Of a DNA stretch of 64,000 nt, positions 13,860 through 15,479 are shown piece by piece. Origin of the DNA: an uncultured Eggerthellaceae bacterium (GTDB lineage Bacteria > Actinomycetota > Coriobacteriia > Coriobacteriales > Eggerthellaceae). Under the pieces are notes generated by a model that had not been told where the DNA came from, ran no database searches, and was given only the letters and a program-made list of their open reading frames with translations. Within the stretch, counting starts at the first letter, position 1. Every line of letters begins with the position of its first letter. The DNA is taken from the NCBI GenBank assembly GCA_947626195.1, contig CANQRF010000002.1:124001-188000 (forward strand), written 5' to 3'. The translations under genes were made by a program, and so were the position numbers.

Positions 13860-14498
13860 TTACATGCGGCGGAAGAGTGCGACGACCTTGCCGGCGATCG
13901 TGCAGTCGGTGGTGATGATGGGATCCATCGCGGCGTTTTCCGGCTGGAGGCGGATGTAGTTCTCCTCGCGATAGAAGCGCTTGACGGTGGCCCCGTCATC
14001 CATGAGGGCCACGACGATGTCCCCGTTGTTTGCGACGGGCTGCTGCCTCACGACGACGTAATCGCCATCGTTGATGCCAGCTTCGATCATCGACTCGCCC
14101 CGCACCGAAAGCAAAAACGACGGCGAATCGCCCACGATGTCGGTGGGAAGCGTGATGACGTCGGTGATGTTTTCCTCGGCGAGGATCGGCGTGCCTGCGG
14201 CGACATTGCCGACAAGCGGAAGATCGATGAGCTTGCTGAAGCTCGGCCGGATGATCGGCGTTTCGTCGGCGGCCGATTCGAGGGGATAGGTGAGGGCGAT
14301 GGAGCGCGACTTCAGCGGATCGCGCTTGATGAGCCCCTTGCTTTCAAGGGCCTTCAAGTGGACATGCACCGTGGAAGGGGAGGACAGGTTCAGCTTCTCG
14401 CACACTTCGCGAACCGTGGGGCCGTACCCCTTTTCACGAATGCTCTCTTCGATGCAGTCCAGCACAGCCTGCTGGCGCTTCGTCACTTTCTCGCTCAT
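13860..14498 (-). CDS. lexA: SOS repressor LexA
   Basis: Transcriptional repressor of the SOS regulon, inactivated by RecA-stimulated self-cleavage. The product is 212 residues: an N-terminal winged helix (KRQQAVLDCIEESIREKGYGPTVREV), the cleavage site Ala101-Gly102 (VAAGTP), catalytic Ser136 (RGESM) and Lys173 (TVKRF). The intervals cleavage site-Ser (34) and Ser-Lys (37) equal those of E. coli LexA. The start at 14498 is supported by GAGAGGA; an upstream in-frame codon at 14513 is less likely. SOS boxes in the upstream gap imply autoregulation. Confidence 0.98.
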   Translation of the reverse strand: MSEKVTKRQQAVLDCIEESIREKGYGPTVREVCEKLNLSSPSTVHVHLKALESKGLIKRDPLKSRSIALTYPLESAADETPIIRPSFSKLIDLPLVGNVAAGTPILAEENITDVITLPTDIVGDSPSFLLSVRGESMIEAGINDGDYVVVRQQPVANNGDIVVALMDDGATVKRFYREENYIRLQPENAAMDPIITTDCTIAGKVVALFRRM

Positions 14499-14519: not shown

Positions 14520-14589
14520 CGAACATTTGTCCTGTTTTTCTCTTGACGTGAACTTATGTTCGATTTATTATAACAGCGAACAAAGGTTC
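14520..14589. promoter_or_regulatory. Bidirectional SOS control region with three LexA boxes
   Basis: Three boxes lie between lexA and the divergent gene: CGAACATTTGTCC (14520-14532, one mismatch), GAACTTATGTTCG (14550-14562, perfect GAAC-N4-GTTC) and CGAACAAAGGTTC (14577-14589, perfect). The rightward promoter is TTGACG (14543-14548), 17-bp spacer, TATTAT (14566-14571); the second box fills its spacer and the third lies at the transcription start. The first box is 21 bp ahead of the lexA start codon. Confidence 0.88.
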
Positions 14590-14614
14590 TATGCAAGTGC
14601 TCGAGGTGATAAAC

Positions 14615-14908
14615 ATGGCAAGAATGCAACACAGGGGATTGGCGGTGCCTGTTGGATTGGTGAAACAGCCTGATGCTCTGAGCGCTATCCCTAAGAGCTT
14701 GGACGGCCTTCAAAGGAGTTTTTCCGATGATCTTGCCCTGACGCTCCCTTCATCCGCGCAAGGCGGCATCTATCCGGGCCTTTTCACCGAGCTCTGCTAT
14801 GGGCGCGTCTGCGGCATACCGCTCAATCGCTTTTCGACAAGAGAAGTTGCCGTCACGTTTCTCATCGGAATCCTCATGGCTTGCGCGGCTCTGGTTCTTT
14901 GCCCCTAG
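14615..14908 (+). CDS. SOS-regulated small membrane-anchored protein (candidate damage-induced division inhibitor)
   Basis: The 97-residue product is transcribed from a promoter straddled by two perfect LexA boxes, divergently from lexA. ATG 14615 is chosen for its GAGGTG; an earlier ATG at 14591 would overlap the LexA box/start-site region. A soluble, Leu/Ser-rich N-terminal part (~1-75) is followed by one hydrophobic segment at the extreme C-terminus (VAVTFLIGILMACAALVLCP), i.e. tail-anchored. No LysM domain, so it is not YneA-like by sequence, and I recognise no family. Its position mirrors Bacillus yneA and other divergent lexA partners that block septation during SOS. That role here is inferred from position and regulation only. 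Confidence 0.7.
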   Translation: MARMQHRGLAVPVGLVKQPDALSAIPKSLDGLQRSFSDDLALTLPSSAQGGIYPGLFTELCYGRVCGIPLNRFSTREVAVTFLIGILMACAALVLCP

Positions 14909-15017: not shown

Positions 15018-15479
15018 ATGCGGTGCCCATCGTGCAACTACGCTGAGTCGAAAGTCATCGATTCCCGCCCTTCAGACGACGGGAGCTCAATCCGGAGAAG
15101 ACGCGAATGCCTTCATTGCGGCCATCGTTTCACGACCTACGAGCGTCTTGGCGAGAATCCCATCATCGTCATAAAGGCCGATGGATCCTCTGAGGTATTC
15201 GATCGCAGCAAGCTCATGCGGGGCATTTTCACCGCCTGCGCCAAACGTCCGGTGACGCCGGAGAGCATTGAGGAGTTGACGGCGGGCATCGAAACCGATC
15301 TTCGCTCCATGCCGCGCGGCGAGGTGCATTCAAAGGATCTCGGCGATATGGTTCTCACGCGCCTCGCAAACCTCGACGATGTGGCCTACATCCGCTTCGC
15401 CAGCGTCTATAAGGACTTTCAGAGCATCTCAGAGTTCTCAGACGCCCTCAATGAGCTCGTCTCGCAAGAGAAGGACTGA
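15018..15479 (+). CDS. nrdR: Transcriptional repressor NrdR
   Basis: Nucleotide-sensing repressor of ribonucleotide reductase genes. The product is 153 residues: an N-terminal zinc ribbon (MRCPSCNY...CLHCGHRFTTYE) followed by an ATP-cone domain (IKADGSSEVFDRSKLMRGI). The start at 15018 follows GAGGTG with 5-base spacing; an earlier frame start at 14973 would precede the invariant MRCPxC. It is followed closely by dut, so both affect dNTP pools. Confidence 0.97.
   Translation: MRCPSCNYAESKVIDSRPSDDGSSIRRRRECLHCGHRFTTYERLGENPIIVIKADGSSEVFDRSKLMRGIFTACAKRPVTPESIEELTAGIETDLRSMPRGEVHSKDLGDMVLTRLANLDDVAYIRFASVYKDFQSISEFSDALNELVSQEKD

Follow-up and report, generated by a model that had tools for sequence, protein, structure and literature searches.

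Among the described inhibitors of cell division that respond to DNA damage, the closest to the gene analyzed here are YneA of Bacillus subtilis and ChiZ (Rv2719c) of Mycobacterium tuberculosis, and reports differ on what their parts contribute. The transmembrane segment (TM) of YneA binds TM7 of FtsW and localises, but alone it does not inhibit, the LysM domain being required (PMC13396833). ChiZ is reported to behave otherwise, since its disordered tail plus the TM are enough for filamentation (PMC7355643) and, according to a review, its LysM is apparently unnecessary (PMC3989709). SidA of Caulobacter crescentus, an inner-membrane protein of only 29 aa, blocks division through FtsW (PMC4211646). 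SosA of Staphylococcus aureus is inactive without its outer part (PMC6851548), and DivS of Corynebacterium glutamicum is an SOS-inducible division suppressor encoded near lexA that has no LysM (PMC3989709, PMC6851548).

In the 64 kb stretch of DNA from an uncultured Eggerthellaceae bacterium that we have analyzed (the window), a small gene, X (14615–14908, forward strand, stop included), lies divergent from lexA (13860–14498, reverse strand; TIGR00498, E 2e-66), as the initial annotation had it, and is followed by nrdR (15018–15479, forward strand; Pfam Zn_ribbon_NrdR and ATP-cone), the downstream neighbour that fixes the slot. The gene was delimited by its open reading frame and by same-slot homologues in Eggerthellaceae, and it is preceded by a Shine-Dalgarno-like GAGGTG (14603–14608, forward strand) also present in the closest relative (L005). 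An alternative in-frame ATG at 14591 (105 aa) was discarded, as it lies 1 nt past the second LexA box described below and the relatives begin at the equivalent of 14615. Large open reading frames antisense to lexA and hflX were taken as spurious. The 97-residue product has a single predicted TM, and the tail-anchored layout initially proposed for it agrees with AlphaFold2 and hydropathy, which place a C-terminal helix at residues 75–95 (14837–14899, forward strand). Mean pLDDT was 93–96 over residues 81–97, the remainder of the model being mostly of low confidence. Because basic residues immediately precede the helix and only two residues follow it, the protein should be N-in, its disordered N-terminal part being cytoplasmic and no portion of it exposed outside. 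The search against Pfam and NCBIfam gave no LysM match, also as annotated, and no known family was found in Pfam, NCBIfam or the PDB sequences. A soluble FtsZ-binding protein of the SulA type was rejected, given the C-terminal TM and the lack of a Pfam match. The papers searched held nothing relevant on gene X or on SOS in this bacterial group.

Set beside the described systems, X resembles ChiZ in having one TM after a disordered N-terminal part in the cytoplasm and, as proposed for X, in being induced by DNA damage; however, ChiZ continues into an outer linker and a LysM, whereas X stops two residues past the TM, and the two are likened by architecture. YneA is also small, SOS-induced (for X this would follow from the boxes), encoded near lexA and provided with a single TM, but its outer LysM is required (PMC13396833) whereas in the X family the LysM is missing and hardly any residues lie outside. 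SosA is divergent from lexA, LexA-controlled and single-TM, and lacks LysM (PMC6851548). Its orientation is nevertheless reversed with respect to X, with the TM near the N-terminus (residues 10–30 of 77) and an essential outer C-terminal part, the helix of X being at the opposite end. DivS is said to lack significant homology to YneA, and it is by description that we set it beside X.

The only perfect GAACN4GTTC sites in the window are at 14550–14561 (GAACTTATGTTC, box 1) and 14578–14589 (GAACAAAGGTTC, box 2), and their arrangement is the one given in the initial annotation. Reading the X promoter by eye, a −35 TTGACG (14543–14548) and a −10 TATTAT (14566–14571), both on the forward strand and conserved in relatives, are separated by 17 nt that are filled by box 1, while box 2 covers the predicted start site. 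Box 2 falls also in the spacer of the predicted lexA promoter (reverse strand; −35 TTGCAT, 14591–14596; −10 TATAAT, the complement of 14567–14572; 18-nt spacing). A third, imperfect box with one mismatch (GAACATTTGTCC, 14521–14532) is located between box 1 and lexA; many relatives have GAACAAATGTTT at this position. The GCAAG stretch after box 2 is 95–100% conserved. The 1.83 Mb genome contains 28 perfect sites, against 54 for a reversed control pattern, and therefore a single site means little. Among the matches listed genome-wide, though, the only pair 28 bp apart is that of the X promoter. In 55 of the 63 Eggerthellaceae loci compared (see below) there are two perfect boxes exactly 28 bp apart within one consensus promoter, TTGACAtGAACnTTTGTTCG..TATTATA....CGAACAAAGGTTCTAcGCAAG, and since so many loci carry the same promoter we consider that the pair is not due to chance, so that the proposed LexA control stands as far as sequence can tell. 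The two boxes seem to serve two overlapping divergent promoters, those of lexA and X, which would explain the fixed spacing. A working SOS circuit is very likely present, because recA and dinB carry boxes too. The recA promoter, also in the window, consists of TTGACA, the LexA-like box AAACACCTGTTC (2624–2635) in the spacer and TATAAT, a layout like that of the X operator, with the recA ATG at 2745. For dinB, which lies elsewhere in the genome, the box is perfect and precedes the first possible start by 84 bp.

Three other perfect boxes deserve a mention in their own right. The division and cell-wall cluster usually begins with MraZ, and GAACCTCTGTTC (L171; G000:C33:50146-50157) is found ca. 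76 bp upstream of a frame matching Pfam MraZ, which could mean SOS control of that cluster or be due to chance. Another, GAACAAATGTTC (L169; G000:C25:7909-7920), is just upstream of a 357-aa secreted-looking coiled-coil protein with no clear Pfam family. The sequence of box 1 of the X promoter, GAACTTATGTTC, recurs upstream of a small protein that matches Pfam Cas2 weakly (L146; G000:C1:240268-240279).

A search with LexA recovered 74 loci, of which 68 belonged to Eggerthellaceae or to unplaced relatives, and 63 loci (window included) had lexA and nrdR on one stretch. The conservation next to lexA that was expected of X from the start was found, with a membrane protein between lexA and nrdR in 55 of these 63. 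The slot held a protein with a cytoplasmic part and a C-terminal helix in 46 loci, little beyond the helix in nine and none in eight. Most members have 55–152 aa, many of them with a conserved cytoplasmic motif. The window protein itself shows direct similarity to proteins of only three other genomes of its family, and a profile finds the family in 54 f1 genomes; by these comparisons it is a fast-evolving protein. Slot and operator, like the predicted topology and the absence of LysM, can be read directly from the DNA. Two further features were seen between X and nrdR. In Gordonibacter, Eggerthella sinensis and Raoultibacter (L013, L032, L036, L055) a gene is inserted there for a protein with two ABC-ATPase halves, ABC-F-like by eye, and in Adlercreutzia the gap (alignment A3, columns 175–200) has a strongly conserved GATGGTAGCAATGTTTTGAA upstream of nrdR, perhaps the promoter or operator of the latter.

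In the other families of Coriobacteriia the same slot has a different content. A TM plus LysM protein is present in 28 of 30 lexA loci from those families, versus none of 67 Eggerthellaceae intervals searched with the same LysM HMM, and Pfam LysM is matched by 12 of 12 aligned proteins from other families versus 0 of 38 Eggerthellaceae members. These LysM-type neighbours of lexA (alignment A2; L083–L112) have in common with X the slot, one TM and LexA-type boxes. They differ in having kept the LysM and, in family f2, in a box variant, GAACAnnTGTAC. Those of f2 and f3 are also like the X family in their N-terminal motif, which reads GTSALK...LVLIEGG in them and GTSALK...IIxFPG in Eggerthellaceae. 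Comparison of the Eggerthellaceae and LysM-type families by hhalign gave a probability of 90% for the GTSALK stretch (E 1.6e-6). With the N-terminal model, the scores of 31 of the 38 members exceeded the 99th percentile of their shuffles. The motif is degenerate in the window protein (3.5 bits; shuffle 99th percentile 2.5), and this portion is lost in its sister L005, where the tail is ca. 35 divergent residues. Common descent with the LysM-type members is thus firm for the family and weaker, or marginal, for the window sequence taken alone. Several f2 genomes (L085, L088, L090, L105, L106, L107, L110 and L112) have no GAACN4GTTC upstream of lexA; they have instead the variants GAACAnnTGTAC/GTACAnACGTTC, similarly arranged, which might reflect a change in the specificity of LexA.

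The likeness to ChiZ draws also on the recurrence across the phylum of TM plus LysM genes beside lexA and nrdR. As 26 of the 30 best phylum-wide TM plus LysM matches adjoin lexA (17 with nrdR too), the LysM form is probably ancestral. On the LexA tree, which came with long-branch warnings and from which we claim no exact order, LysM status switches twice, once in Eggerthellaceae and once in genus g56 of f2 (L105, L107), where the slot protein ends right after the helix in what would be a separate truncation. The loss in Eggerthellaceae appears therefore to be old, separating the whole family on this tree. No LysM relic or frameshifted LysM was detected between X and nrdR (LysM HMM, six frames, 67 intervals). 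A LysM-type inhibitor elsewhere in the genome was looked for and rejected, the sole LysM match being a 68-aa open frame (C4:66757) surrounded by several kb free of perfect LexA boxes. The best reading of the window protein is that of a positional orthologue of the YneA/ChiZ-type SOS division inhibitor that has lost all parts outside the membrane. The initial annotation called it unlike YneA; this is right as regards the LysM, but the protein appears to be a LysM-less descendant and not an unrelated one, since in sister families the slot holds a YneA/ChiZ-like TM plus LysM protein with the N-terminal motif in common. We have not filed X in the YneA/ChiZ type, because the extracellular LysM, a defining feature, was searched for and is absent. 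The LexA boxes, the divergent lexA neighbour, the single TM and the evidence of common descent are all there, and X would be a LysM-less positional orthologue probably working toward the same end.

The reduction goes further in Adlercreutzia. At eight Adlercreutzia-type loci X is only 23 residues long (e.g., MARYEFPIAFALSTIASFVIFFA), preceded by a good Shine-Dalgarno, and at L051 it has 33. In a comparison of the helix by sequence alone, with 300 shuffles for each form, three of these nine TM-only forms exceed all, two are near the top (ranks 4 and 10) and four are not significant, the identity of the last four being based on slot, operator and Shine-Dalgarno. None of the TM-only genomes has lost the −35, the −10, the Shine-Dalgarno or the boxes. 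The −35 of X, intact in these 9/9, is mismatched or gone in 8/8 genomes without X, and the 28-bp double operator is also altered in 7/8 of the latter. This promoter contrast is the best evidence that the shortest form of X would be a working SOS gene. The dN/dS values of X were 0.1–0.6, a sign of purifying selection, with the helix often tighter than the rest. Pairs of 23-mers, where computable, gave about 0–0.4, and the pair L027 and L033 differs by nine synonymous and zero replacement changes. Selection and the Adlercreutzia reduction are in this way both visible in the genomes.

X evolves much faster than LexA, and we take it to be dispensable, as it is absent from eight of the 63 loci. Fast evolution and absence could also suggest a decaying remnant, in which the loss of a LysM such as the one that YneA needs (PMC13396833) abolished inhibition and the gene is now being lost. 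The dN/dS well below 1 in most pairs, the 23-mers included, argues against this, as do the promoter signals kept in all TM-only genomes and eroding at the −35 where X is gone, and the apparent antiquity of the LysM loss; we regard decay as highly improbable. Another possibility concerns the short forms. E. coli TisB is a small membrane toxin under SOS control, and the 23-residue hydrophobic peptides are similar in size to such toxins, so that X might be a TisB-like type I toxin acting on the membrane itself and bringing about dormancy instead of a block of septation. Purifying selection on the helix fits a toxin as well. Most members, however, are 55–152 aa long, many with the conserved cytoplasmic motif, and the orthologues in the slot carry a LysM, which fits a role at the divisome or cell wall, and a toxin seems to us improbable. 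The 23-residue forms (not the window protein) resemble SidA in being tiny SOS-controlled membrane proteins, a likeness in the way of working and not of membership, drawn by description across different phyla.

We think it probable that X is the SOS cell-division inhibitor of this bacterium, LysM-less and acting through its helix on the septal synthase. LexA dimers on the two boxes 28 bp apart would repress the overlapping lexA and X promoters, with every box covering the start of one promoter while occupying the spacer of the other, until DNA damage leads to LexA cleavage and X is made. The protein, descended from a YneA/ChiZ-type ancestor that had a cytoplasmic tail, a TM and a LysM, the last of these lost together with the outer linker, would insert by its C-terminal helix and, most likely, delay septation by a lateral contact of this helix with the septal synthase. 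FtsW would be the leading candidate, and the genome contains three FtsW/RodA-family genes. In the long forms the cytoplasmic tail would assist, and the delay would last until repair ends and X is cleared. We infer in this scheme the induction by damage, the inhibition of division, the FtsW target and the clearance of X.

The weight could also be the other way round, with the cytoplasmic tail inhibiting through the tails of FtsQ/FtsI or through FtsZ regulators and the helix as a mere anchor. The N-terminal motif conserved between LysM and LysM-less families would favour this, and so would the two-hybrid contacts of ChiZ with FtsI and FtsQ (PMC3989709, PMC7355643). Yet in Adlercreutzia the tail is reduced to a few residues, and in L005 to ca. 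35 divergent ones, while helix and promoter remain, and in several pairs the helix has a lower dN/dS than the tail; we find a tail-driven inhibition rather unlikely. Most simply, the helix would bind the septal synthase and suffice in this lineage, alone or with the tail. A more tentative proposal, which may be correct but to which we do not commit ourselves, is an SOS checkpoint exerted by the membrane helix alone, in which LysM loss at the base of Eggerthellaceae and tail loss in Adlercreutzia pared the protein stepwise to a peptide of 23 residues still able to block the septal synthase from within the membrane. If true, this inhibitor would be smaller than SidA, and reached by reduction.

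The history of X appears well supported by these comparisons, and its function is a proposal. With YneA reported to need its LysM and ChiZ not, a whole family without LysM, whose forms grade from ca. 150 to 23 residues and for the most part share one conserved operator, dissects the protein naturally. With these graded forms the question can be put to a direct test, and so can the ability of a bare helix to switch off FtsW. X would also be a candidate gene of the DNA-damage checkpoint in a group of bacteria common in the human gut.
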